Source of the DNA: Oscillospiraceae bacterium
Lineage (GTDB): Bacteria; Bacillota; Clostridia; Oscillospirales; Ruminococcaceae
Length of the DNA: 64,000 bases
Reading direction: 5' to 3'
Assembly (NCBI GenBank): GCA_017435565.1
Contig: JAFSEU010000006.1
Coordinates: 1 to 64,000, forward strand
Numbering within the stretch: position 1 is the stretch's first letter; each line of letters begins with the position of its first letter. A model generated the notes under the pieces. The model was given only the letters and a program-made list of their open reading frames with translations. It had not been told where the DNA came from and searched no databases. Made by a program: the position numbers and the translations under genes. Below, piece by piece: positions 46,829-63,330 of the stretch.

Positions 46829-48010
46829 TCAATCAGCTGAGAGCAGACTATTGATATAATGCAAAGCAAGTCTCGGCGACCTGCCTCCTCTTTGAAGTGC
46901 AAGTCGCTCTGCACCGTTCTCAAGTTCGGATTTTTCAATATTCAGTCCATTCTTTTCGGCAAGCTTTGTAACGATAGTCAGATAGTCTGCTTTATCGGGC
47001 TTGTGAAAAGAAACATGCAGACCGAAGCGTTCTGACAAAGAAATCTGCTCCTGCATAGTATCGTTGCGATGTATGTCATCACCGTCACGGTCAGAAAACT
47101 TTTCTTTGATAATGTGCCTGCGATTGCTTGTAGCATATATCACAACATTATCGGACTTTGCGCATACCGAGCCTTCAAGCACAGCCTTGAGTGCATTAAA
47201 GCTGTCATCATCAGTCGAAAACGAAATGTCATCGATGAATATGATAAATTTCAAAGGATTTGACGAAAGCTCGGATATAACCCTCGGAATCAGCGCAAGC
47301 TGGTGCTTATAAACCTCAACGATTCGCAAACCGCTGCCGGAAAGCTCGTTGCAAACCGCTTTGACAGTGGATGATTTACCCGTGCCCGCATCACCGCTGA
47401 GAAGAACATTAGCCGCACTTTTGCCGCTTAGCAACGCTTTTGTATTGTCAATAATCTGTTTTTTCTGCAAATCATATCCGAATAAATCGCTAAGCCGAAT
47501 CGGATCGGGATGTTCAACAGGAACAAGTGAGGCATCGTCTGCAACGCAGAACATAGTGTTCTGCGAATAAATGCCATAGCCGTATCTTCCGATATTATCG
47601 AGCTTATGATTATAATAATCATACAATTCAAACTCAGCGGACTCAAAATCGGGCAGGAATTCACAATTCTGAATGTATTGCTGCAAATCGCAAGGCTTAA
47701 CAGCACATAACAATTGCAGAGTTTCAAGCTCAGTCACAAGCGATTTTTTCATATAATCAGGCACGCATTTTCCCTGTCCTATCAAACGAACGACAATATT
47801 ATCGCTCGAATCGCAGAGTGATTTCACATAATCGGTAAGATTACCAAAGCCGTAATTATACAGATTTGATACAAATTCGCAATATGAGCTGTTGCAGGGG
47901 TGTGCGATAAACTCCAAAAGCGATGAAATCACTTTATCACTAAGCAAAGCGCGGAAAACAGTAAGGGATTCAAGCCGATTTTGTAACTCAATCAAATCAA
48001 TAGCTTTCAT
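46829..48010 (-). CDS. AAA-type ATPase, DUF815 family
   Basis: 393 residues from the ATG at 48010 (an in-frame TTG at 48016 overlaps ilvD). Residues about 1-180 are a poorly conserved helical region; the AAA core follows with Walker A GDAGTGKSS (Lys212), Walker B FIIFIDDISF, sensor-1 VIYATSNRRH, and a C-terminal lid with LALQRGGRSPRLAL. It matches the DUF815 family of putative MoxR/DnaA-like ATPases whose role is unknown. It begins three bases after the ilvD stop, so it is the last gene of the branched-chain operon, although no link to amino-acid synthesis is known. Confidence 0.85.
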   Translation of the reverse strand: MKAIDLIELQNRLESLTVFRALLSDKVISSLLEFIAHPCNSSYCEFVSNLYNYGFGNLTDYVKSLCDSSDNIVVRLIGQGKCVPDYMKKSLVTELETLQLLCAVKPCDLQQYIQNCEFLPDFESAEFELYDYYNHKLDNIGRYGYGIYSQNTMFCVADDASLVPVEHPDPIRLSDLFGYDLQKKQIIDNTKALLSGKSAANVLLSGDAGTGKSSTVKAVCNELSGSGLRIVEVYKHQLALIPRVISELSSNPLKFIIFIDDISFSTDDDSFNALKAVLEGSVCAKSDNVVIYATSNRRHIIKEKFSDRDGDDIHRNDTMQEQISLSERFGLHVSFHKPDKADYLTIVTKLAEKNGLNIEKSELENGAERLALQRGGRSPRLALHYINSLLSAD

Positions 48011-48012
48011 AG

Positions 48013-49668
48013 TCAATTCAGAATTGCCCCCGAAGCGCCGCCGGAAACAAGTGCGGCATATCGCTTGAGATAGCCCGAAAGCTCTTTTGATTTCGGAACA
48101 AAATCAGACATTCGCCTGTCAAGCTCGCTTTGCTCAACCAAAAGCTCAATTTTGTTTTCCGGTATATTTATGCTTATGATGTCACCGTCTTCGACAACTC
48201 CGATAAGTCCGCCGCTTGCGGCCTCAGGCGTAATGTGACCGATGCACGCACCCCTTGTAGCGCCCGAAAAACGTCCGTCGGTAATGAGTGCAACACTGTC
48301 GCCGAGCCCCATCCCCATAACAGCCGATGTAGGATTAAGCATTTCTCGCATACCGGGTCCGCCCTTTGGTCCTTCATATCTTATGACAACAACATCGCCG
48401 GGTTTAATTTTCCCTGCATTGATTGCACTCTGAGCGTCCTCTTCACAATCAAACACCCTCGCAGGTCCGCTGTGAACAAGCATTTTCTCACATACAGCCG
48501 AACGTTTAACAACACATCCGTCCAAAGCAAGGTTTCCTCGCAATACTGCAATTCCGCCCGTTTCGCTAAAGGGATTATCAATCGGTCTGATAACTTCATT
48601 GTCAAGATTCTCACAGCCGCATATATTCTCACCAACAGTCTTTGTGCTTACTGTAATACAATCGGTGTTGATAAGATTTTTCTTTGAAAGCTCATGCATC
48701 ACAGCATAGACTCCGCCTGCCTCGTCAAGCTCCTCAATATAAGTTCTTCCTGCAGGAGCAAGGTGACACAAATTCGGTGTGTTCTTGCTGATATCATTAG
48801 CAATATCAAGATTTATTTCAATTGAGCATTCGTGCGCAATTGCGGGCAGATGCAGCATACTGTTTGTCGAACAGCCCAGAGCCATATCAACTGTAAGAGC
48901 ATTGACAAAAGCGTCATAGGTCATAATATCACGCGGACGGATATCCTTTCTCACAAGCTCCATTACTGCCATTCCCGTATGCTTTGCAAGCTCAATTCTC
49001 GATGAATATACAGCAGGAATTGTTCCGTTGCCCTTCAAAGCCATACCAAGAGCCTCAGTCAGGCAATTCATAGAATTTGCGGTATACATTCCTGAGCACG
49101 AACCGCAAGTCGGGCAGGATTTACATTCAAATTCACGGAGCTTTTCTTCCGAAAGCTTTCCGGCAGAGCACGCTCCGACAGCCTCAAACATACTTGACAA
49201 ACTGGTTTTTTTGCCGTCAACTCGTCCTGCAAGCATAGGTCCGCCCGACACAAAAATTGTCGGAACATTAACTCTGGCAGCCGCCATCAAAAGTCCGGGA
49301 ACATTCTTGTCACAATTGGGAACCATAACCAGTGCGTCAAAGCCATGAGCCAGAGCCATTGCTTCGGTCGAATCTGCAATCAGGTCACGGGTAACAAGTG
49401 AATATTTCATACCGTTGTGACCCATTGCAATTCCGTCGCAAACTGCAATCGCAGGGAAAACAACAGGTGTTCCTCCTGCCATTGCAACGCCGAGCTTTAC
49501 CGCATCAACGATTTTGTCTATATTCATATGTCCCGGTACAATTTCGTTATATGAGCTGACAATACCTACAAGCGGACGGCTGAGTTCCTCCTCAGTAAGC
49601 CCCAATGCGTGGAAAAGTGCACGGTGAGGAGCATTTATCATTCCGTTTTTTATAGAATCGCTTTTCAT
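48013..49668 (-). CDS. ilvD: Dihydroxy-acid dehydratase
   Basis: Fe-S enzyme dehydrating dihydroxy-isovalerate and dihydroxy-methylvalerate to the 2-keto acids of valine and isoleucine. 551 residues. Cluster cysteines in [10 protein letters not shown] and [18 protein letters not shown]; magnesium/active-site region [16 protein letters not shown]-terminal [15 protein letters not shown] with the catalytic Ser. GGAGGAT ahead of the ATG. Confidence 0.97.
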
Positions 49669-49693
49669 AAAATCCTCCGATAATCCGAATCAA

Positions 49694-50716
<1,023 letters not shown>

Positions 50717-50742
50717 TTACCTCATTTCTTTTATTGTAATAT

Positions 50743-51258
50743 TTATAAATTTATAGTCTGACGAATAGTCGTACTTCCCTTTTCAAGAGAAACACTGCCC
50801 GTGCGGCAAATTTCAAGAATAGTATAATCACGCATCAAATCAATAAAATCGTCAATCTTTCTGCTGTCATCAGCAAGTCTGAAAACAATTGAATCCTTTG
50901 AATAATCAACCGTCTTTGCACCAAATGCCGAAGCAGCGGTTCTAATGTCATCACGGTTGGCAGCTTCATTAGCCATCTTTATAAGCAAAAGCTCACAGCT
51001 AACAGAATTATCTGAGTTAAACTCCTTGATTGAGCAAACATCGGGCAGCTTATACAGCTGATTGACAAGCTGCTGTTTATATGTTTCTTCGCCGTCAAAC
51101 GTAACAGTAATTCTCGAAAATTCACTCGACTCTGTTTCACTTACGCTCAATGAACTGATATTGAACTGTCTGCGGCGGAACATACTTGTTACACGGTTCA
51201 ATACACCGAACTGGTTTCTTACAAGAACTGCTACAGTATATCTATTCATATCAATCAC
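50743..51258 (-). CDS. ilvN: Acetolactate synthase, regulatory subunit
   Basis: Small subunit that binds valine and activates and feedback-regulates IlvB. 171 residues: N-terminal ACT domain (YTVAVLVRNQFGVLNRVTSMF) and C-terminal regulatory domain (YTILEICRTGSVSLEKG). Overlaps the end of ilvB by eight bases. Confidence 0.95.
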   Translation of the reverse strand: MIDMNRYTVAVLVRNQFGVLNRVTSMFRRRQFNISSLSVSETESSEFSRITVTFDGEETYKQQLVNQLYKLPDVCSIKEFNSDNSVSCELLLIKMANEAANRDDIRTAASAFGAKTVDYSKDSIVFRLADDSRKIDDFIDLMRDYTILEICRTGSVSLEKGSTTIRQTINL

Positions 51259-52918
51259 CCGCCTTCACGATAATATCATCCATTGAGCCACCGGGAGGAA
51301 GCATCGGAAGAACAAATTCATCCTTATCGATATAACAGTCAATCACATACGGCATATCTGATTCAAAAGCTTTTGCAAGCACATTTTTCAGCTCGGTTAA
51401 ATTTGTCACTTTGTCGCCGTCAGCACCAAATGCTCTTGCAAGTTCGACAAAATCAGTCTTTCTGTCAATAATCGAGTTGGAGTAATGCTTGTCAAAGAAA
51501 AGCGTCTGCCACTGGCGAACCATTCCAAGCACACCGTTGTTCATAATCAGAACAACAACCGGAACTTTATAAGAAACAGCAGTAGCAAGTTCATTCAGAC
51601 ACATTCCGAAGCTGCCGTCACCTGTTATAAGCACGCTCTTTTCCTTGGTGCCGAAATATGCGCCAATCGCCGCACCAAGCCCGAATCCCATAGTTCCGAG
51701 GCCTCCTGACGAAACAAAACGTCTGCTCTTTCTGAAATAAAGATTCTGAGCTGACCACATCTGATGCTGTCCGACATCGGTTGCAACAGCAGTATTTTCA
51801 CCAAGAAATTCATTAACGGTGCAGACAACATTTTTCGGAGTAAGACCTTCTCTGTTATCGCTGTATTCTTCTTCCTGCTGTCTGAGCACAGCTATCTTAT
51901 CATTCCATTCTGTGCGCTCTGCCTTATCAAGAAGAGGAATCAGCTTTTGCAGGGTAAGCTTTATATCACCGCGCAAACCGTGCACCGAATTGACTGTCTT
52001 TGAAAGCTCAGAGCCATCAATATCAATATGAACGATTTTTGCATTTGTTGCAAATTTCAGACGGTTACCCGTTACTCTGTCATTAAAGCGCGTACCGAGC
52101 GAAATTATCAAATCAGACTTGTGCATAGCCATTGAGGAAGCATAATGACCGTGCATCCCCTGCATTCCAAGAAAACGCGGATGATCAGTCGGAATTGCTG
52201 AAAGAGCCATCATTGAACAGCCGATAGGAGCGTCGATTTTTTCAGCAAGCTCAAGCACCTCGGTCTGAGCATTGCTTGCAAGAACGCCGCCGCCGATATA
52301 AATATACGGACGCTTAGCCAGATTTATAGATTCGGCAGCAGCTTCGATCCGCACATCCTTTGCAGCAGCTTTTTCAAAGCATTCAACCGGACCTTTGCTC
52401 TCATATTCACACATTGCTATCTGAACATCCTTGGGAACGTCAATAAGTACAGGTCCGGGTCTGCCTGACTTAGCGAGCTTGAATGCCTGACGAACCGTGT
52501 CCGCAAGGTCTTTGACATCGCCTACAAAGTAATTATGCTTAGTAATTGGCAAAGTGACACCTGTTATATCAATTTCCTGAAAGCTGTCCGTACCAATCTG
52601 CGAAGTCGGAACATTTCCGCAGATTGCAACCATCGGGATAGAATCAAGATATGCAGTTGCAATTCCTGTTACAAGGTTTGTAGCCCCCGGTCCCGATGTC
52701 GAAATCACAACTCCGACCTTGCCTGTTGTTCTTGCATAGCCATCAGCAGCGTGTGCCGCACCCTGTTCGTGAGCAGTAAGTATATGCGTAATCTCATCAC
52801 TGTATTTATACAGCGAATCATAAACATTAAGAATCTGACCGCCGGGATATCCGAACACAACATCACATTCCTGCTCGATAAGAGTCCTTATAAGTATATC
52901 CGAACCGGATAAAAGCAT
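51251..52918 (-). CDS. ilvB: Acetolactate synthase, catalytic subunit
   Basis: ThDP- and FAD-dependent enzyme giving acetolactate or acetohydroxybutyrate. 555 residues. VFGYPGGQILNVYDSL at the N-terminus with HEQGAAHAADGYAR supplying the catalytic Glu; FAD region RFNDRVTGN; ThDP motif GDGSFGMCLNELATA through NNGVLGMVRQWQ. Four bases from leuB. Confidence 0.97.
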   Translation of the reverse strand: MLLSGSDILIRTLIEQECDVVFGYPGGQILNVYDSLYKYSDEITHILTAHEQGAAHAADGYARTTGKVGVVISTSGPGATNLVTGIATAYLDSIPMVAICGNVPTSQIGTDSFQEIDITGVTLPITKHNYFVGDVKDLADTVRQAFKLAKSGRPGPVLIDVPKDVQIAMCEYESKGPVECFEKAAAKDVRIEAAAESINLAKRPYIYIGGGVLASNAQTEVLELAEKIDAPIGCSMMALSAIPTDHPRFLGMQGMHGHYASSMAMHKSDLIISLGTRFNDRVTGNRLKFATNAKIVHIDIDGSELSKTVNSVHGLRGDIKLTLQKLIPLLDKAERTEWNDKIAVLRQQEEEYSDNREGLTPKNVVCTVNEFLGENTAVATDVGQHQMWSAQNLYFRKSRRFVSSGGLGTMGFGLGAAIGAYFGTKEKSVLITGDGSFGMCLNELATAVSYKVPVVVLIMNNGVLGMVRQWQTLFFDKHYSNSIIDRKTDFVELARAFGADGDKVTNLTELKNVLAKAFESDMPYVIDCYIDKDEFVLPMLPPGGSMDDIIVKAGD

Positions 52919-52922
52919 AATA

Positions 52923-54020
52923 TCATTCCTTTCTCAGATGCTCAATGATGAGTGAGCCGCACTCTGAGCATCCGATTTGTCTGCAGTTGAGAGCTTCCGA
53001 TTCATTGCGCGGCATAATATCCGCACAACGGTATCCAAGATCAAGCACCTGCGACACGGCATTTTCAATACAATCAGCCTCGCTCGTCATATCAAAGCTG
53101 TATCTGAGCATCATTGCTGCCGAAAGAATTGTTCCTATCGGGTTAGCGACATCCATTCCCGCAATGTCGGGCGCCGAACCGTGAATCGGCTCGTAAAGAC
53201 CGCAGCTTGTCGCACCAAGGCTTGATGAAGGTATCATACCGATTGAGCCTGTAATCATTGAAGCCTCGTCTGACAAAATATCGCCGAACATATTTTCAGT
53301 TACGATTACATCAAACTGAGAAGGGTTTTTGACAATCTGCATAGCACAGTTGTCAACAAGCATATCCGACAGCTCAACATCGGGATATTCCTCGCTCAGT
53401 CTGTGCATAACCTTTTTCCACAAACGGCTCGAATCGAGAACATTGCTCTTTTCAACTGAGCAAAGCTTCTTAGAACGCTTTCTCGCAGTTTCAAACCCGA
53501 TTCTGCCAATACGCTCAATTTCATCCTCAGTATATACAAGAACATCGGATGAAACCTCAGTTCCGTCAACATTTTCGGTTTTATGCTCACCGAAATATAT
53601 TCCGCCGATAAGCTCCCTTACAATTATAAAGTCTATTCCCTTATCAACAATCGACTGCTTTAAGGGCGAAGCCGAACTGAGCTGAGGCCAGATTTTTGCG
53701 GGACGGTTATTTGAATAAACACCCATACCTGCACGCAGTCTGAGAAGACCTTTTTCGGGACGCATATTCCCGGGAACGCTGTTCCATTTTTCTCCGCCGA
53801 CAGCCCCGAGAAGCACGCTGTCGGAATTCTTGCATCTGTCCAGCATTTCCTGCGGCAAAGGGTCACCCCATTTGTCGATTGCGCATCCTCCCATATCGAC
53901 ATTGGTATAGGTAAAGGTATGACCGTAAAGCTCTGCGATTTTATCGAGCACTCTCAGCGCCTGAGTAACAATTTCCGGACCGATTCCGTCCCCTCGTATA
54001 ACCGCAATATTCTTATTCAT
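52923..54020 (-). CDS. leuB: 3-isopropylmalate dehydrogenase
   Basis: NAD-dependent oxidative decarboxylation in leucine synthesis. 365 residues from the ATG at 54020 ([18 protein letters not shown]); the open frame extends nine codons further into leuD but AGGGGGA is spaced for this [19 protein letters not shown] is the substrate loop, [21 protein letters not shown] and [12 protein letters not shown] are typical, and [14 protein letters not shown] is the cofactor loop. It overlaps leuD by eight bases. Confidence 0.96.
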
Positions 54021-54510
54021 TGCTCTGTCCCCCTTTAAGCGACGCAAGCAGACCGCCGCATCTGATTATATTCTGAATAAACGGTGGAAACGGCTGTGCC
54101 GTGTATGATTTTCCCGTTGTAACATCAGTAATAATGCCCGTATCAAAATCAACCTTGACTTCATCGCCTGCATTGATTTCATCAGCAGCCTGCTCACATT
54201 CAAGAATCGGCAGACCGATATTTATAGCGTTTCTGTAAAAAATCCTTGCAAAGCTTTTGGCAATTACGCATCCTGTTCCGCAGTGCTTGATAACAAGCGG
54301 AGCGTGCTCACGCGATGAACCGCAGCCAAAATTATAGCCTGCAACGATAATATCGCCTTTATTTACCTTTTTTACAAATTCTTTGTCAATATCTTCCATG
54401 CAATGCAAGCTAAGCTCGTTTGCGTCGGGCGTATTGAGATAGCGTGCGGGGATGATAACATCCGTATCGACATTATCGGGATATTTAAAAACCTTACCCT
54501 GTGTATTCAT
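54013..54510 (-). CDS. leuD: 3-isopropylmalate dehydratase, small subunit
   Basis: Swivel domain of the aconitase-like isomerase, 165 residues, the short archaeal/clostridial type. [19 protein letters not shown] at the N-terminus and the active-site loop [13 protein letters not shown]. Five bases after leuC. Confidence 0.96.
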
Positions 54511-54515
54511 AAAGC

Positions 54516-55775
54516 TCAGTCCTCCTTATATTCAGTAATATATCCGCAAAGAGCACTTGCTGCTGCTGTTGCCGGCGAAGCAAGGTAAACCTCGCTGTCA
54601 GTGTGTCCCATTCTTCCGACAAAATTACGGTTTGTGGTAGCGATGCATCTTTCGCCTGCAGCCAGAATTCCCATATATCCACCAAGGCACGGTCCGCAGG
54701 TAGGTGTCGAAACAACAGCACCTGCGTCAATGAACGCGGTATAATATCCACGCTCAACACATTCACGCAGAATCTGCATTGTTCCGGGGATGATAATGCA
54801 GCGGACATTGTCTGCAACCTTTTTGCCACTCAGAATCTTATATGCACACTCCATATCTTCCATTCTGCCGTTTGTACAGCTTCCGATTACAACCTGGTCT
54901 ATTCTGATATCCGAAAGCTCGCTTGCATCTTTTGTATTTTCGGGAAGATGCGGACAAGCGACAGTAGGTCTGATATCGCACAGATTTATTTCGATTGTCT
55001 GTTCATACTCAGCGTCATCATCTGCTGTGTAAATCACAGGTACACGCTTGCTTCTGCCGCTCAGATAATCCACAGTCACCTTATCGACGGGGAAAATACC
55101 GTTCTTTGCGCCTGCTTCAATTGCCATATTGCATATGCAGAGGCGGTCGTCCATCGAAAGGTTTGCAACACCGCTTCCGGTAAATTCCATACTCTTATAA
55201 AGTGCACCGTCAACACCGATCATACCGATAATTGTAAGTATAACGTCCTTACCGCTGCAGTTTGACGGCAATTTTCCGAAAAGATTGAATCTGATAGCGG
55301 AAGGCACCTTGAACCATGCCTGACCGGTCGCCATACCTGCTGCCATATCCGTACTGCCAACACCTGTTGAAAACGCTCCGAGTGCACCGTATGTACAGGT
55401 ATGGCTGTCAGCACCGATTATACAGTCGCCTGCGGTAACAACACCCTGTTCGGGCAAAAGTGCGTGTTCAATTCCCATTTTTCCGACATCGTAAAAATGG
55501 CTCACACAATGAGAGCAAGCAAATTCTCTGCACACCTTGGACTGCTCTGCCGCCTTGATATCCTTATTGGGCACAAAATGGTCAAGAACAATCGCAACTC
55601 TGTCCTTATCAAACACATTGTCAAATCCCGCTTTTTTGAATTCATTTACTGCGACAGGCGTTGTAATATCATTTCCAAGCACGATATCAACCTTTGCATT
55701 TATAAGCTGTCCCGCGCTGACCGTATCAAGACCGCAATGTGCGGCAAGAATTTTCTGAGTCATTGTCATTCCCAT
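54516..55775 (-). CDS. leuC: 3-isopropylmalate dehydratase, large subunit
   Basis: 4Fe-4S aconitase-like subunit that isomerises 2- to 3-isopropylmalate with LeuD. About 419 residues, again the short clostridial type. The open frame reaches 55799 inside leuA; the ATG at 55775 ([13 protein letters not shown]) follows an AAAGGA with 11-base spacing and lies after the leuA stop. Cluster cysteines in [12 protein letters not shown] and [25 protein letters not shown] substrate motif. Confidence 0.95.
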
Positions 55776-55779
55776 AAAA

Positions 55780-57459
55780 TCACGCATCCTTTCCTGCATC
55801 GTTCATATTATTATAAGCACTGAGAAGAGCGTTTACGCTGGCGTGAATAATATCCGTATCAGTTCCCGCACCCCAGAACATATTTCCGTTTTTGTCCTTG
55901 ATTCCGATATACGCTGCAGCAACGCTCTCCGAACCCTGTTCACTCAGGCTGTGCTCGCTGTATACATCAAGCAGATACGAAGCACCTGTGTACGCCTTGA
56001 GCGCATTGCTGACAGCATCAAGCGAACCGTTTCCGACTGCTCTGAGAACAGTTTCACTTCCGTCTCTGACGAATTTAATCTCAGTTTCAACAGTTTTTCC
56101 TTTGCGGTAAAAATGCATATCCGAAACATTTACGTCGGATTCGCCGAGGAAATAAGCGTCCTTGAATATTTCAAGAACCTCAAGTGCTTTAAGCTCCTTG
56201 TGTTCACGGTCAGAAATACCCTTGCAGAGATAGCTGAGATTTTCACGCATACCTGCAGGAAGTGAATAACCGTAGGTCTGTTCGAGAAGATATCCGATTC
56301 CGCCCTTGCCGCTCTGCGAATTGACTCTGATGACATCGGCATCATAAGTACGGCTGATATCACGCGGATCAATAGGAATATACGGCACATTCCAGCGGTG
56401 AAGATCCATTTCTTCGCGATATTTCATACCCTTAGCAATTGCGTCCTGATGGCTGCCCGAAAATGCTGCAAACACAAGCGCTCCTGCATAGGGTGCACGC
56501 TCATAAACGTGCATTCTGGTGCATTTTTCATATTTTTCAACAAGCTTTGGCATATCGGAAAAATCAAGCTTCGGGTCAACACCATGCGAATACATATTCA
56601 TTGCGAGAGTGATTATATCAACATTACCTGTTCTTTCACCATTTCCGAAAAGCGTACCCTCAACACGGTCGGCACCCGCAAGAAGAGCAAGCTCGGTATC
56701 GGCAACACCGGTTCCTCTGTCGTTATGCGGGTGAAGCGATAATGTAACAAACTCACGGTATTTGAGATTTTCGCTCATATATTCAACCTGCGAAGCGTAT
56801 ATGTGCGGCAGACTCATTTCAACCGTTACGGGAAGGTTTATAATCACATTATTCGTCTCGCTCGGCTCAAGCACATCAAGAACTGCATTGCAAACCTCAA
56901 GGGCATATTCCGGCTCGGTTCCGGTAAAGCTTTCGGGTGAATATTCAAAGCGGAAATTACCTTCATACTCCTGTGCAAGCTTTTTCACAAGCTTTGCACC
57001 GTCAACGGCAATCTGCTTGATTTCTTCTTTTGACTTTTTGAAAACCTGCTCACGCTGTGCAACGCTTACAGAGTTATAAAAATGTATAATCGCATTAGGT
57101 GCGCCCTTACAGGCATCAAAGGTTTTTCTGATGATATGCTCACGGCATTGGGTCAGCACCTGAACCGTTACATCATCGGGTATCATATTATTATCAATCA
57201 GTGTGCGCAGAAATTCATATTCAGTATCACTCGCCGCAGGAAATCCGACCTCTATTTCCTTGAATCCGATATCAAGCAGTACCTTATAAAACTCAAGCTT
57301 TTCGTCAAGGCTCATAGGAATAACAAGGCTCTGATTTCCGTCTCGCATATCTACGCTGCACCATACAGGCGGTTTTTCAATATGGTCTTTTTGTGTCCAT
57401 TTGTTATATTGCATCGGTGCGGGATAATACCCCACAGCATATTTACTTGAGTCCATCAT
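55780..57459 (-). CDS. leuA: 2-isopropylmalate synthase
   Basis: First step of leucine synthesis, acetyl-CoA + 2-ketoisovalerate. 559 residues, the long yeast/actinobacterial-like type 2 sequence ([20 protein letters not shown]). HMGL barrel with [13 protein letters not shown] and [14 protein letters not shown] (metal histidines), then a LeuA dimer/regulatory domain from about 425 to the end, where leucine usually binds. The start overlaps the ridA stop (ATGATG). Confidence 0.95.
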
Positions 57460-57845
57460 ATATCACTTTCACCTATTTCTGCAATCACATCTACTTCAAC
57501 AAGCACACCCTTCGGCAATTCTTTCACGGCAACGCAAGAGCGTGCAGGTGCATTTTTAAAATACAGTGCATAAACCTCATTGAAAGCAGCAAAGTTTTTC
57601 ATATCACTTAAATAACATACTGTTTTTACGGCTTTGTCAAGAGAGCTCGAAGCCGCTTCGAGAACAGCTTTCAGATTTTTGCAGACCTGATGCGTCTGTG
57701 AGGCAATATCCGTGCCTTCAATTTCACCGCTTTGCGGATTCAGAGCAATCTGACCCGATGTAAATACTAAATTTCCCGAAACGACAGCCTGAGAATACGG
57801 CCCGATTGCTTTCGGTGCGTTTTCTGTATATATTGAATATGACAT
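57456..57845 (-). CDS. ridA: RidA family enamine/imine deaminase
   Basis: Hydrolyses the reactive 2-aminoacrylate or 2-aminocrotonate that PLP dehydratases release. 129 residues, standard trimeric YjgF fold: TENAPKAIGPYSQAVVSG, FTSGQIALNPQSGE, catalytic Arg in APARSCVAVKELPKG, and VEVDVIAEI at the end. It follows ilvA by 14 bases, whose enamine product is its natural substrate, so the pairing makes biochemical sense. Confidence 0.96.
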   Translation of the reverse strand: MSYSIYTENAPKAIGPYSQAVVSGNLVFTSGQIALNPQSGEIEGTDIASQTHQVCKNLKAVLEAASSSLDKAVKTVCYLSDMKNFAAFNEVYALYFKNAPARSCVAVKELPKGVLVEVDVIAEIGESDI

Positions 57846-57859
57846 ATCAAATCCTCCGT

Positions 57860-59050
57860 TTATACTATTTTAAAGCCTTCATCACGCAAGGTCTGCGTAA
57901 TAAGCTCAATGTGCTTATAATCCCTTGTTTCCATTTCAATTCTGAGATAACATCCGTTTACGCTCTCAGTGTTTCCTTTTTCATAGTGAACGCCTGTTAC
58001 ATTTCCGCCGCAGTCAGCAATAATGCGTGAAACATCCTTCAGCTGACCGGGCTTATCAATCAGCTCAATCAAAAGGCTGAATGAACGTCCCGAATTCAGC
58101 AATCCACGGTCGATAACTCGTGAAAGACTTGTGACGTCAATGTTGCCGCCTGAAACAACGCAGACAACCTTTTTGCCACTTACCGGAAACTTTCCGAACA
58201 TTACAGCGGCAACAGCGGCAGCACCTGCACCCTCAGCAATCATCTTCTGCTTTTCAATAAGCGCTAAAATCGCCGATGAAACCTCATCATCAGTCACAAG
58301 GGCAATATCGTCAACATAATCCTTAACTATATTGAAGGTATTCTCACCGGGCTGCTTTACTGCAATTCCGTCAGCAATAGTCGTAACGGAATCGAGACAC
58401 TCAATTTGGCCACTGTTTATTGAATTGTACATACTCGGTGCACCTGCCACCTGCACACCATATATTTTTACATTCGGGCGAATCTGCTTTGCAGTATAGG
58501 CAATTCCCGAAATAAGACCGCCGCCGCCGACAGGAACAATAATCGCGTCAATATCATCAAGATCCTTAAAAATTTCAAGAGCAATTGTCCCCTGCCCCGC
58601 AATTACATTTTCATCATCAAAAGGGTGTACAAATGTATAACCCTTTTCATCACGAAGCTCTATCGCCTTTTGAAATGCGTCATCATAGCATCCCTTTACA
58701 AGACAGACATCGGCACCGTAAGCCTTAGTTGCCTCGACCTTAGAAATCGGTGCGCTGTCGGGAAGACAGATGAGAGAGCTTATTCCGCATTTTGACGCCG
58801 CAAGCGCAACACCCTGAGCGTGGTTTCCCGCAGAGCAGGCAATTACGCCTTTTTGCTTTTCCTCGTCAGACAGCATTGCTATCATATAGCCTGAGCCTCG
58901 TACCTTAAACGAACCTGTAATCTGCAGATTTTCAGGCTTCAGGTATAGCTCACAGTCAGGAGCAATGCCATAAGCTCTGACCGCAGGAGTTTTTCTGATG
59001 ATATCCTTCAGCACAACCTGTGCGTGAAAGACCTTGTCAAGAGTGAGCAT
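57860..59050 (-). CDS. ilvA: Threonine ammonia-lyase (threonine deaminase) with C-terminal ACT domain
   Basis: PLP enzyme turning threonine into 2-ketobutyrate, the entry to isoleucine. 396 residues, the shorter type with a single C-terminal ACT domain. PLP lysine in ITGSFKVRGSGYMI, SAGNHAQGVALAAS, the glycine loop PVGGGGLISGIAY, and C-terminal SLLIELIDKPGQLKDVSR. First gene of the operon, controlled by the T-box leader upstream. Start MLTLDKVFHAQ behind GAAAGGAAT. Confidence 0.95.
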   Translation of the reverse strand: MLTLDKVFHAQVVLKDIIRKTPAVRAYGIAPDCELYLKPENLQITGSFKVRGSGYMIAMLSDEEKQKGVIACSAGNHAQGVALAASKCGISSLICLPDSAPISKVEATKAYGADVCLVKGCYDDAFQKAIELRDEKGYTFVHPFDDENVIAGQGTIALEIFKDLDDIDAIIVPVGGGGLISGIAYTAKQIRPNVKIYGVQVAGAPSMYNSINSGQIECLDSVTTIADGIAVKQPGENTFNIVKDYVDDIALVTDDEVSSAILALIEKQKMIAEGAGAAAVAAVMFGKFPVSGKKVVCVVSGGNIDVTSLSRVIDRGLLNSGRSFSLLIELIDKPGQLKDVSRIIADCGGNVTGVHYEKGNTESVNGCYLRIEMETRDYKHIELITQTLRDEGFKIV

Positions 59051-59103: not shown

Positions 59104-59140
59104 CAAAAAACCGCCTCAAAGCTTATTATGCTTTGAGACG
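59104..59140 (-). terminator. T-box-controlled terminator of the branched-chain operon
   Basis: Minus strand stem CCGTCTCAAAGC / GCTTTGAGGCGG (one G-U type mismatch) with a 7-base loop and six T, directly after the T-box antiterminator region and 54 bases before ilvA. Confidence 0.9.
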
Positions 59141-59590
59141 GGAGTAAAGTCAGATTTACACTCGCGGTACCACTCAAATTGCGGATATAATAATCCACCA
59201 CCTCTTCGAAGTCAAACAACTTCTATGCATTAACGCAGCATTCACGGGAAGCGTCTACTTAGGAAAAACCTGTTCGGACTTCCGGCTCGGAAGTGATAAG
59301 TCTTAAGGTGATCCATACCGATTCACAGCAACCATCGGCTCTCTGAAATGTTTCTGCCTTGACCGTCTTCGTCACAGCCTTTGTTTTCGAAGTCTGTCAA
59401 CCTCTATGCATTAACGTAGCATACACGTGGCACCCTAATAAATTACAAATGCAAATGTTCAGGTACCCGGCTCAGAAGGGAGAGGTCATTAAGAAAGCAT
59501 TATACCGGTTCACAGCAACCACCGGCTCTCTGAAATTACTCTTTCTCGACCGTCTTCGTCACAGCCTTTAAAAAATATATATTCAATTTT
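59104..59590 (-). promoter_or_regulatory. T-box leader with two Stem I modules (Leu then Ile specifier) and one antiterminator
   Basis: On the minus strand two homologous modules begin at 59566 and 59379 (187 bases apart), each with GGCTGTGACGAAGACGGTC, then AGAGAGCC, GGTTGCTGTGAA and GAGC. At the same place in each, six bases before GAGC, the specifier is CTC in the first (59480-59482, Leu) and ATC in the second (59295-59297, Ile). Each is followed by a Stem II-type segment sharing GTTAATGCATAGA. Only the second continues into a T-box (59163-59180, with GAGTGGTACCGCG) and terminator. Uncharged tRNA would stabilise the antiterminator and turn on ilvA to ilvD. Confidence 0.88.
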
Positions 59591-59595
59591 TTCAC

Positions 59596-59624
59596 ATTAT
59601 AGCACTTCATTTTCGATATGTCAA
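59596..59624 (-). promoter_or_regulatory. Consensus promoter of the branched-chain operon
   Basis: Minus strand TTGACA (59619-59624), 17-base spacer, TATAAT (59596-59601). Start near 59589, just before the first Stem I. Divergent from the nadA promoter. Confidence 0.88.
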
Positions 59625-59680: not shown

Positions 59681-59706
59681 TTTACAGATGACTTGACAGA
59701 TGTAAA
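59681..59706. promoter_or_regulatory. Candidate NiaR operator over the nadA promoter
   Basis: TTTACA (59681-59686) and TGTAAA (59701-59706) form an inverted repeat, and ACAGATG occurs twice (59684-59690 and 59696-59702). The element covers the -35 box of nadA. The repressor gene niaR closes the same operon, so NAD-status autoregulation is likely. Confidence 0.6.
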
Positions 59707-59721
59707 TATATATGGTATAAT
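59693..59721 (+). promoter_or_regulatory. Consensus promoter of nadABC-niaR
   Basis: TTGACA (59693-59698), 17-base spacer, TATAAT (59716-59721). Because the -10 box ends at 59721, the in-frame ATG at 59722 cannot be the nadA start. Confidence 0.88.
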
Positions 59722-59769
59722 ATGTCAGCTTTTAGCGAATCCATTTTAATCAAAGAAGAGCGAATGATT

Positions 59770-60681
59770 ATGAACGACATTATTGTAAAAAAAATTGAAG
59801 AACTGAAAAAAAGCAAAAACGCTATTATTGCCGCACATTATTATGCACCGCCGCAGGCACAGCAGGTTGCAGATTTTGTCGGCGATTCATATTACCTTGC
59901 AAAGCAGGCTAAAAACACAGACGCAGATATTGTTGTGTTCTGCGGAGTCGGGTTTATGGGCGAAAGCGTAAAGATTCTCAACCCTTACAAAAGGGTTTTT
60001 ATGCCCGATATCAATGCAGACTGTGCAATGGCACATATGGCAGATGTTGAAAGAATCAAACAGCTGCGTAATGAACATGACGACCTTGCGGTTGTCTGCT
60101 ACATAAATTCAACAGCTGCACTCAAATGCCACAGCGACGTATGCGTAACCTCATCAAATGCCGTAAAAATTGTAAAATCACTTCCCAACAAGAACATTTT
60201 CTTTATTCCCGACAAAAATCTCGGAAGCTTTGTAGCAGCTCAGCTGCCCGAAAAGAATATTATTCTCAACGACGGATGCTGCCCCATTCACGATGCGGTA
60301 ACGCCCGAGCAGGTACATCTCAGCAAAGCCGAGCACCCGAACGCACTTGTTCTGACGCACCCCGAATGCCGCAGTGAAATTCTCGAAATGTCCGACTTTA
60401 TCGGAAGTACGGCTGATATAATCAGGTTTGCAAATGAAAACGATTCCGACGAATTCATCATATGCACCGAGGACGGTGTAGGCTTTGAACTACACTCAAA
60501 AAACCCTTCAAAAAAGTTTTATTTTGTATCAAAAGAGCTTTGCTGCAAAGATATGAAGCTCAATACGCTTGATAAAATACTCAGAGTGCTCGAAAACGAA
60601 GAAAACGAAATCTTTATTGACGACAAAACGCGTGCAAAAGCCATCGCACCCCTTGACCGTATGCTTGAGCTTGCGGAATAG
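59770..60681 (+). CDS. nadA: Quinolinate synthase
   Basis: 4Fe-4S enzyme condensing iminoaspartate with DHAP to quinolinate, a precursor of NAD. 303 residues from the ATG at 59770, which is nine bases behind GAAGAG; ATGs at 59764 (too close) and 59722 (inside the promoter) are rejected. HYYAPPQAQQVADFVGDSY, the cysteine-bearing VVFCGVGFMGES, VCVTSSNAVKI, LNDGCCPIHD and THPECRSEI are typical; cluster cysteines are among these. First of the nad operon. Confidence 0.95.
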   Translation: MNDIIVKKIEELKKSKNAIIAAHYYAPPQAQQVADFVGDSYYLAKQAKNTDADIVVFCGVGFMGESVKILNPYKRVFMPDINADCAMAHMADVERIKQLRNEHDDLAVVCYINSTAALKCHSDVCVTSSNAVKIVKSLPNKNIFFIPDKNLGSFVAAQLPEKNIILNDGCCPIHDAVTPEQVHLSKAEHPNALVLTHPECRSEILEMSDFIGSTADIIRFANENDSDEFIICTEDGVGFELHSKNPSKKFYFVSKELCCKDMKLNTLDKILRVLENEENEIFIDDKTRAKAIAPLDRMLELAE

Positions 60682-60695
60682 TAATCGGAGAGTTT

Positions 60696-61967
60696 ATGAA
60701 AACTGATGTTATAATTATCGGCAGTGGTGTAAGCGGTCTTTACTGCGCACTGAACCTGCCGCAGGAAAAGAATATTATAATTGTCACAAAGGACAAAGCC
60801 GACAAAAGCGATTCATTCCTTGCACAGGGTGGAATCTGCGTATTGCGTGACGACAGCGACTATGATTCGTATTTTGAAGATACAATGCGTGCCGGTCACT
60901 ATGAAAACAACAAAACCTCGGTCGATATTATGATATCGTCCTCACGTGATATTATAAACGACCTTATAGATATCGGCGTTGATTTTCATAAAGAAAACGG
61001 TGAGTATGTTTACACCAAGGAAGGCGCACATTCAAAGCCGAGAATACTCTTTCACGAGGACGAAACGGGAAAAGAAATCACCTCGAATCTTCTTGAAAAG
61101 GTAAGAAAGCTGAAAAACGTGCAGATTCTCGAAAACCACACAATGGTGGATATTCTTGAAAATCAAGGAGAATGCGCAGGTATCGTCTGCAAGGATAATG
61201 ACGGCGAGTTTATCACAATTCAAGCTGATTATACCGTTATGGCAACCGGAGGTATCGGCGGTCTTTATGCTCATTCAACAAATTATGAGCATCTGACGGG
61301 TGACGCACTTGCAATCGCCATAAAGCATAACATAGCCCTGAAAAACATCGACTATATCCAGATTCACCCGACAACGCTTTATTCCAAGGAAAAAGGCAGG
61401 GAATTTCTGATATCGGAATCCGTAAGGGGCGAAGGTGCGATTCTTCTTGGCAGAAACGGTGAACGTTTTGTTGATGAGCTTTTGCCGAGAGATGTCGTTG
61501 CAAACGCTATATACGAGCAGATGAAAAAAGACGATATGCCTCATGTATGGCTGTCCATGGCGCCGATATCGGAAGAAGAAATCAAATCCCACTTTCCGAA
61601 TATATATGAACACTGTCTCTCAAAAGGCTATGATGTGACTAATGAGCCTATTCCCGTTGTCCCCTCTCAGCACTATTTTATGGGTGGAATTGACGTAAAC
61701 TCACACAGCAAAACATCTATGGAAAGACTCTATGCCGTGGGCGAAACCTCCTGCAACGGTGTTCACGGCAAGAACAGACTTGCAAGCAACTCGCTGCTTG
61801 AAAGTCTTGTCTTTGCCAAAAGGTGTGCGCTCGACATAACTAAAGACTATTCACAGATGCACTGTGAATGCCCTGACATAAACCAAAAGCTTTACGAAAA
61901 CTTTGAGGAAGAATACAGGAAAATTGTAATTGAGGCAATTGAAAAGGAGAAGAATAAAAATGAATGA
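60696..61967 (+). CDS. nadB: L-aspartate oxidase
   Basis: FAD enzyme oxidising aspartate to iminoaspartate for NadA; in anaerobes fumarate is the likely electron acceptor. 423 residues, somewhat shorter than the E. coli enzyme (540), lacking much of the C-terminal helical domain as is usual in clostridia. FAD motif IIGSGVSGLYCAL, LAQGGICVLRD, VMATGGIGGLYAHSTN, substrate/active site SVRGEGAILLGRNGERF and HYFMGGIDVNSHSKTSM. Overlaps nadC by eight bases. Confidence 0.94.
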   Translation: MKTDVIIIGSGVSGLYCALNLPQEKNIIIVTKDKADKSDSFLAQGGICVLRDDSDYDSYFEDTMRAGHYENNKTSVDIMISSSRDIINDLIDIGVDFHKENGEYVYTKEGAHSKPRILFHEDETGKEITSNLLEKVRKLKNVQILENHTMVDILENQGECAGIVCKDNDGEFITIQADYTVMATGGIGGLYAHSTNYEHLTGDALAIAIKHNIALKNIDYIQIHPTTLYSKEKGREFLISESVRGEGAILLGRNGERFVDELLPRDVVANAIYEQMKKDDMPHVWLSMAPISEEEIKSHFPNIYEHCLSKGYDVTNEPIPVVPSQHYFMGGIDVNSHSKTSMERLYAVGETSCNGVHGKNRLASNSLLESLVFAKRCALDITKDYSQMHCECPDINQKLYENFEEEYRKIVIEAIEKEKNKNE

Positions 61968-62811
61968 AATTACAATGATGCTTAATGCTGATGAATATAT
62001 TCTTAGCGCTCTGAAGGAAGATATTACAAGCGAAGATATCACAACCAATTCCGTTATGCGCAAATACTGCCTCGGACAGGTTGAGCTTATCTGCAAGCAG
62101 GACGGAATTGTTGCCGGGCTCGGCATTTTCAAACGTGTTTTTGAGCTTCTTGATAAAAATACAGAATTTGAAATGTTTGCCAAGGACGGTGACGAGGTTC
62201 AAAACGGTCAGCTTCTCGGAATTGTCAGAGGTGATATCCGTGTCCTGCTTTCAGGCGAAAGAACAGCGCTTAATTATCTTCAGCGTATGAGTGGAATTGC
62301 TACATATACCAAAAGCGTTGCTGTACTATTGGAAAATACAGGCACAAAACTGCTTGACACAAGAAAAACCACACCTAATATGCGCATTTTTGAAAAATAT
62401 GCCGTAACAGTCGGCTCAGGTTACAACCACAGATATAATTTAAGTGACGGAATTCTTTTGAAGGACAACCACATCGGCGCAGCAGGAAGTGTTGCAAATG
62501 CTGTAAAAATGGCAAAGGAATATGCACCCTTTGTGCGCAAAATCGAAGTCGAGGTTGAAAATCTCGATATGCTTAAAGAAGCTCTTGACGCAGGTGCAGA
62601 CATCGTTATGCTTGACAATATGAGCGTTGAGGATATGAAGCAGGCCGTAATGCTTGCCAAAGGCAGAGCTGAAACCGAATGCAGCGGCAACGTCACAAAG
62701 GAAAACATCAGAACTCTCACAGACATCGGTGTTGACTATATTTCCAGCGGTGCTTTGACTCACTCCGCACCGATTCTTGACCTTTCTCTCAAGAATCTCC
62801 GTGCAATATAA
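61960..62811 (+). CDS. nadC: Nicotinate-nucleotide pyrophosphorylase (carboxylating)
   Basis: Converts quinolinate and PRPP to nicotinate mononucleotide. 283 residues from the ATG at 61960 behind AAGGAGA; the open frame extends upstream to 61930 inside nadB. ALKEDITSEDITTNS, GERTALNYLQRMSGIAT, LDTRKTTPNMRIFEKYAV, and the C-terminal barrel motifs EVEVENLDMLKEAL and VDYISSGALTHS. Eight-base overlap with nadB. Confidence 0.96.
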   Translation: MNEITMMLNADEYILSALKEDITSEDITTNSVMRKYCLGQVELICKQDGIVAGLGIFKRVFELLDKNTEFEMFAKDGDEVQNGQLLGIVRGDIRVLLSGERTALNYLQRMSGIATYTKSVAVLLENTGTKLLDTRKTTPNMRIFEKYAVTVGSGYNHRYNLSDGILLKDNHIGAAGSVANAVKMAKEYAPFVRKIEVEVENLDMLKEALDAGADIVMLDNMSVEDMKQAVMLAKGRAETECSGNVTKENIRTLTDIGVDYISSGALTHSAPILDLSLKNLRAI

Positions 62812-62823
62812 GGAGGACGGAGA

Positions 62824-63330
62824 ATGAAGGCTCAACAGCGAAGAAAAGAAATAGCTGCTCTTCTGCTGGCAAGTGATATGCCGATTACAGGCGCTGCACT
62901 TTCGGAAAAGCTCGGCGCATCAAGGCAGATTATTGTGCGCGACATTGCCATTCTCAAGGAAGAAGGCTATGATATCATTTCAACACATACCGGATATATG
63001 ATAAAAGAATCACCTCTTCCGGAAATAGTGCTGAAGCTGCGCCATACCTCTGAGCAGACCTGTGATGAGCTCACCTGCATTGTTGACCTTGGCGGAACAG
63101 TTGTTGACGTTTTTGTAAACCACAAGGTATACGGACGAATCGAAGCCAAGCTCAACATATTCTCACGAGAGTCTGTAAAAGAATTTATTGACGGAATAAA
63201 AAGCGGGAAATCAGTTGAGCTTATGAACCTTACATCGGGCTATCACTACCACACAATCAGGGCACAATCTCAGCATATACTTGACAAAATCGAACAGGCA
63301 CTCGAACAGAAGGGCTATTTAGTCAGATAA
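62824..63330 (+). CDS. niaR: NAD biosynthesis repressor NiaR (YrxA type)
   Basis: Niacin-responsive repressor. 168 residues: N-terminal HTH_11 domain (ITGAALSEKLGASRQIIVRDIAIL, about residues 20-45) and a C-terminal 3H domain named for three histidines, seen here as LRHTSE, NHKVYGR and GYHYHTIRAQSQH, which bind a metal and nicotinate. Last of the nad operon, 12 bases after nadC behind AGGAGG, and probably acts on the repeat at 59681-59706. Confidence 0.93.
   Translation: MKAQQRRKEIAALLLASDMPITGAALSEKLGASRQIIVRDIAILKEEGYDIISTHTGYMIKESPLPEIVLKLRHTSEQTCDELTCIVDLGGTVVDVFVNHKVYGRIEAKLNIFSRESVKEFIDGIKSGKSVELMNLTSGYHYHTIRAQSQHILDKIEQALEQKGYLVR

Follow-up and report, generated by a model that had tools for sequence, protein, structure and literature searches.

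Leader and operon at the locus

The window, by which we mean the whole 64,000-nucleotide stretch of DNA analysed, carries on its minus strand an operon that makes isoleucine, leucine and valine, and NCBIfam matches bear out the gene order ilvA-ridA-leuACDB-ilvBNCD that had been read from the letters alone, before any database search (the sequence-only reading). The leader of this operon extends on the same strand from the promoter at 59624-59596, the single perfect one that a consensus scan finds upstream of the heads on the minus strand of the leader, to the ilvA start at 59050. Its features, and the genes behind it, are as follows.

59596..59624, minus strand: promoter of the sigma-70 type, TTGACA-17-TATAAT with an extended TG (consensus scan, 12/12 matches)
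59384..59568, minus strand: head 1, with Stem I, Stem II, IIA/B pseudoknot and extra hairpin (RF00230 and nhmmer head model)
59480..59482, minus strand: head 1 specifier CTC (Leu, read by tRNA-Leu GAG), six bases before GAGC
59389..59404, minus strand: head 1 extra hairpin GAGGTTGACAGACTTC, between IIA/B and the expected place of Stem III
59200..59381, minus strand: head 2, with Stem I, Stem II, IIA/B pseudoknot and extra hairpin (RF00230 and nhmmer head model)
59295..59297, minus strand: head 2 specifier ATC (Ile, read by tRNA-Ile GAT), six bases before GAGC
59181..59202, minus strand: Stem III, single copy (RF00230 alignment)
59135..59175, minus strand: T-box and antiterminator, GAGTGGTACCGCG...CGTCTC (RF00230 alignment)
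59172-59169, minus strand: bulge TGGT, complementary to ACCA (RF00230 alignment, tRNA 3' ends)
59111..59141, minus strand: intrinsic terminator, the sole one of the leader
57860..59050, minus strand: ilvA, first gene of the operon behind the leader (TIGR01127, 474.6 bits)
48013..57845, minus strand: ridA, leuA, leuC, leuD, leuB, ilvB, ilvN, ilvC and ilvD (NCBIfam)

In a T-box, the anticodon of a tRNA pairs with the specifier and its free NCCA end pairs with the antiterminator bulge; an ordinary T-box has one specifier and one antiterminator, both touched by the tRNA. The covariance search with RF00230 that had been proposed for this leader returned two matches and one antiterminator: head 1 is matched at 59571-59397 (61.6 bits) without the antiterminator part, and head 2 at 59384-59131 (91.2 bits) completely, T-box included. 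The E-values of these matches, 2.1e-20 (head 2) and 9.1e-13 (head 1), place both in the family by covariance model, but both scores fall short of the curated gathering score, 93, so that a default Rfam scan reports neither; the two-head leaders of relatives are likewise matched and likewise fall under the gathering score.

Head boundaries were taken from the repeat profile (the nhmmer head model), with coordinates converted from locus L009. The repeat has a period of 187 bases and the window's two heads are 73% identical, in keeping with the two homologous modules 187 bases apart of the sequence-only reading, whose description of them as a Stem I plus a Stem II-like element proved too narrow. 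In both heads, Stem I bears the AGAGA/distal-loop module and is followed, beyond Stem II, by an IIA/B pseudoknot with a conserved F-box sequence and by an extra hairpin (GAGGTTG...GACTTC in head 1, GAAGTTG...GACTTC in head 2). Head 1 lacks a purine linker, Stem III, antiterminator and terminator, and head 2 alone continues into them; the leader thus has one competing antiterminator and one intrinsic terminator, common to both heads. A second T-box or terminator in the inter-head region, named beforehand as the finding that would count against the proposed layout, was looked for by RF00230 search and terminator scan and is absent between the window's heads, both methods placing the T-box and terminator after the second module only, as the sequence-only reading had them. 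The gap between the two RF00230 matches is 12 nt. By every sequence feature checked, the leader is a member of the T-box family and not a complete tandem, in which each head has its own antiterminator and terminator. By layout it is an adjacent-aptamer riboswitch, a class defined by two aptamers separated by <20 nt and served by one platform (PMC12452182).

The placement of CTC and ATC in the same aligned register, six bases before GAGC, is likewise upheld. An alternative head 1 register two positions upstream, suggested by the ambiguity of CTCTC, was rejected: the leader at locus L041 (ACTGCTCCCTTCCGAGC) fits only the six-before-GAGC register, as do single-head Leu leaders. The specifiers match the amino acids of the downstream ilv-leu operon, and this holds across relatives. 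The window's genome encodes tRNA-Leu(GAG), whose 3' end is ACCA, as is that of its tRNA-Val(GAC); the window's assembly yielded no tRNA-Ile, and the tRNA-Ile(GAT) of a Gemmiger relative ends in ACCA. Other ends in that relative are TCCA (Thr, Gly and Cys), CCCA (His) and GCCA (Asn, Asp and Trp). Because tRNA-Leu, -Ile and -Val end in ACCA, the single TGGT bulge fits all three branched-chain tRNAs.

Around the locus, a divergent NAD operon occupies window positions 59693-63330 on the plus strand, with its own perfect promoter at 59693-59721 and genes for quinolinate synthase (nadA), an FAD-binding protein (nadB-like), quinolinate phosphoribosyltransferase (nadC) and an HTH_11/3H-domain regulator (niaR-like). 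Directly 3' of ilvD, and overlapping its end by a few bases, lies a gene for a DUF815 AAA ATPase (46829-48016, minus strand). Elsewhere in the same genome (C8:82432-82687), a single-head Ile T-box has the same T-box sequence as the window leader and does not stand in front of any gene of the window's ilv-leu operon.

Two-head and single-head leaders in relatives

In all, 27 distinct two-head leaders, spread over about 14 genera and two or more families, came from a DNA search of the family (397 genomes), a scan of 84,980 named genomes for the exact pattern, and searches of the order, the class and two further families. Seven coded genera with such leaders belong to the window's family and six to family f21, and there are single finds elsewhere whose family labels (f16, f17, f24, f44 and f87) are uncertain because most, indeed nearly all, of the loci are from metagenome bins. 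Hosts include Gemmiger An87 and An194, several Candidatus Fournierella and a Ruminococcus MAG, as well as MAGs from roe-deer, water-deer and goat guts and others. Pattern matches at L040, L042 and L054, and most matches of one wider search, were set aside as single T-boxes preceded by an AGAGA that occurs by chance.

The head 2 specifier is ATC (Ile) in all 27 two-head leaders, 23/23 aligned relatives among them, and the head 1 specifier is CTC (Leu) in 24 and GTC (Val) in 3; none of the 27 has the same specificity in both heads. Conservation of the CTC module in relatives, a check that the sequence-only reading had proposed, came out in its favour, with CTC or GTC kept in 23/23 aligned head 1s. 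Every two-head leader with continuing sequence is followed by ilvA. In the three Val-plus-Ile leaders, all from Fournierella (L019, L022 and L026), ilvA is followed by ilvB and not by leu genes, and the one such operon read past ilvB has the order ilvA-ilvBNCD, without leu genes there; the valine reading of these head 1s presupposes the register that is backed by L041 and by the single-head Leu leaders. Across relatives, 6-11 nt separate the head 1 hairpin from head 2, no UGGN occurs in these linkers, and Stem III and the T-box lie solely 3' of head 2 wherever the sequence continues.

Covariation in head 1 was assessed on 23 aligned sequences against 500 shuffles and slid controls. Since RNAalifold gave a non-canonical fold for the head 1 alignment, the count was made on the canonical T-box helices, specified by name. 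In these helices, 97% of cells are paired, 10 pairs have changed on both sides (shuffled mean, 4.3) and the covariation score is 0.174 (shuffled, 0.117), and 0/500 shuffles reach either value; when helix partners are slid, the signal collapses to a score of at most 0.054. Because shuffling does not erase common descent, the argument also leans on the slid control and on the specifier: the specifier columns are conserved at 0.91, 1.0 and 1.0, against a mean of 0.81 over all columns. Folding energy (RNAfold against dinucleotide shuffles) gave head 1 a mean z of about 0 and head 2, a clear T-box, one of +0.6; a measure uninformative even for head 2 is without power here and was dropped. Mean column identity is 72% in head 1 and 85% in head 2; head 1 therefore evolves faster, as expected if it is the less important of the two. 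The extra hairpin shows a near-fixed difference between the heads (A1 column 180, A2 column 168), with GAGGTT, which makes a G-U wobble, in 22/23 head 1s and GAAGTT in 23/23 head 2s.

In a tree of 85 heads from which the specifier columns were left out, the head 2s of relatives form one clade (support, 99/98) and their head 1s, all but L041 and two more rows, form a separate clade (98/84), implying that the pair of heads predates these genera. Single-head leaders are nested in each clade. Two of them, L087 and L099, adjoin the head 1s of L014 and L138 (99/97) and, when aligned to L014, are precise one-repeat deletions that leave the Leu head joined without a break to the same Stem III and antiterminator, upstream of ilvA; five others (L023, L024, L027, L029 and L139) have only the Ile head before ilvA. 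With either head alone found in relatives, each head alone appears to serve this antiterminator. Operons that begin with leuA and have a single head of this family read Leu in 9/9 readable cases. The window's own two heads have no firm placement in the head 1 and head 2 clades, and the tree test leaves them unrejected both as sisters and as members of the two clades, so that a separate recent duplication or a gene conversion at the window locus is possible.

Comparison with known systems and the proposed logic

The window leader shares with the transcriptional T-boxes of RF00230 that have a long Stem I and a Stem II the specifier-bearing Stem I, the AGAGA/distal-loop elbow module, Stem II, the IIA/B pseudoknot, Stem III, the UGGN bulge and the terminator, as well as an operon for the matching amino acids and a C as third specifier base. 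It differs from them in having two heterospecific heads on one antiterminator, whereas all T-boxes known to us have one specifier head per antiterminator. Vitreschak reportedly described, in 2008, T-boxes with duplicated terminator-antiterminator elements; in these, as in the window leader, the number of heads is unequal to the number of platforms, but the two are mirror images, with one head and two platforms there and two heads and one platform here.

Complete tandem T-boxes, as found in trp operons and with thrS and the Clostridioides difficile homoserine dehydrogenase gene (PMC12452182, PMC11477304), resemble the window leader in placing two heads before one operon and are frequent before ilv and leu. 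They differ from it in that each unit has its own terminator and acts independently, giving an AND-like or steeper response, whereas the window leader has one platform. Tandem T-boxes have been argued to require both tRNAs (PMC12452182), which would be the wrong logic for an operon that has to answer either lack. A review names "partially tandem T-boxes" without detail and states that their mode of action is unknown (PMC7583486); the window leader, an incomplete duplication, is probably of the same general kind, for which that review gives no example, specificity pair or logic, and an earlier record in the primary surveys is possible. Adjacent aptamers on one platform include the tandem glycine riboswitch and the guanine/PRPP interactive logic gate (PMC9481103), the latter also with two ligands; here, by contrast, the ligands would be two tRNAs, both inputs would be ON and the expected logic is OR. 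A 2022 survey counts OR with the two-input functions that natural tandem riboswitches had not been seen to perform, and suggests two interacting ON switches as a possible origin of an OR gate (PMC9481103).

We propose, with a probability of roughly 0.6, that two complete heterospecific heads in series with one antiterminator allow starvation for leucine or for isoleucine to admit transcription. Head 1 would bind tRNA-Leu(GAG) and head 2 tRNA-Ile(GAT), and the single TGGT bulge would pair with the ACCA end of whichever tRNA is uncharged; an uncharged tRNA on either head would then stabilise the common antiterminator, letting transcription enter ilvA-ridA-leuACDB-ilvBNCD, and with the head 1 tRNA in use, head 2 would be bypassed as a looped-out domain. 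Since there are two heads and one bulge, only one tRNA at a time can stabilise the antiterminator, and as relatives place either head by itself on this antiterminator, it is simplest to suppose that either tRNA suffices when uncharged; one antiterminator for both heads would also be the simplest way to answer either tRNA. From such comparisons we infer the binding of a tRNA by head 1, its reach past the ~180-nt head 2 to the antiterminator and the OR logic. In L015, L019 and L136, RF00230 can align the Stem I of head 1 directly to the antiterminator by treating head 2 as inserted sequence, an alignment suggestive of topology only. Of the earlier proposal that two tRNAs might be sensed by one antiterminator, as an OR or an AND gate, the layout has held, and the comparative evidence leads us to favour OR. 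We give even odds to the wider claim that this may be the first natural RNA-only OR gate, with heads that alternately drive the antiterminator and a specificity re-tuned in evolution from Leu to Val.

An AND-like or cooperative sensor, in which the head 1 tRNA helps head 2 to bind or fold and full read-through needs both tRNAs uncharged, is unlikely. Adjacent aptamers with one platform are usually cooperative, as in tandem glycine (PMC9481103, PMC12452182), and the 6-11-nt linker and the inter-head period are tightly kept, as contacting domains would lead one to expect; but one antiterminator bulge takes one NCCA end, relatives drop either head yet keep the antiterminator, and under AND logic a cell starved of one amino acid would stay uninduced, although the operon makes both. 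Less probable again is a head 1 that modulates without touching the antiterminator, whether as a tRNA buffer or decoy, by transcriptional delay or pausing, or through transcript stability or processing, with head 2 as the sole real sensor. The absence of its own Stem III and antiterminator and its faster evolution would suit such a role, yet a delay or stability element would need neither a conserved specifier nor a shift from Leu to Val, toward another product of the same pathway, and in L087 and L099 the Leu head stands alone on the antiterminator.

A head 1 left over from a duplication and now decaying, an alternative which the sequence-only reading had raised, is very improbable: head 1 is truncated and tandem repeats arise easily, but about 14 genera have kept it, its specifier is intact and its helices show compensatory changes, the two heads form separate, old clades, and covariation and the natural single-head deletions likewise disfavour decay. 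We give as small a chance to a domain-swap switch in which the duplicated hairpin (GARGTT...GACTTC) exchanges strands and so presents the heads alternately to the antiterminator. Its strands are complementary across heads, and a crude calculation gives cross-pairing a comparable energy; such complementarity is, however, automatic after duplication, and in L135 the head 1 hairpin has changed to GAGGTT/GACCTC, a form with perfect local pairing and a weaker cross-pair with GAAGTT.

This layout, which many genera of gut Clostridia preserve, resembles a natural RNA detector of the lack of either amino acid. If true, the OR reading fills a gap of the 2022 tandem-riboswitch survey (PMC9481103), with one operon for three amino acids answering to more than one of them, which complete tandems, being AND, cannot do. 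Two specifiers on one antiterminator also raise the questions of how far apart the two contacts of a tRNA may be and whether an entire head of 180 nt can be skipped, and the natural series of leaders (Leu only, Ile only, Leu plus Ile and Val plus Ile) makes the matter directly testable.

Further observations at related loci

The loci L154 and L156, in bins of two families outside the window's order, share a near-identical two-head leader with a different antiterminator and terminator, and the ilvA start lies only ~400 nt past the leader; their likeness across families reflects either a bin mix-up or a transfer. Near the two-head leader of L136, a TPP riboswitch match on the opposite strand (2149-2296) scores just below its gathering score. 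Within two loci, and in contrast to other two-head loci, stretches of Stem II look alike in both heads (for instance ACACCCAGTAGGCGTTTCCCG in L015 and GTGTAGGGTGACCCG in L017), a homogenisation that suggests gene conversion sparing the specifiers.
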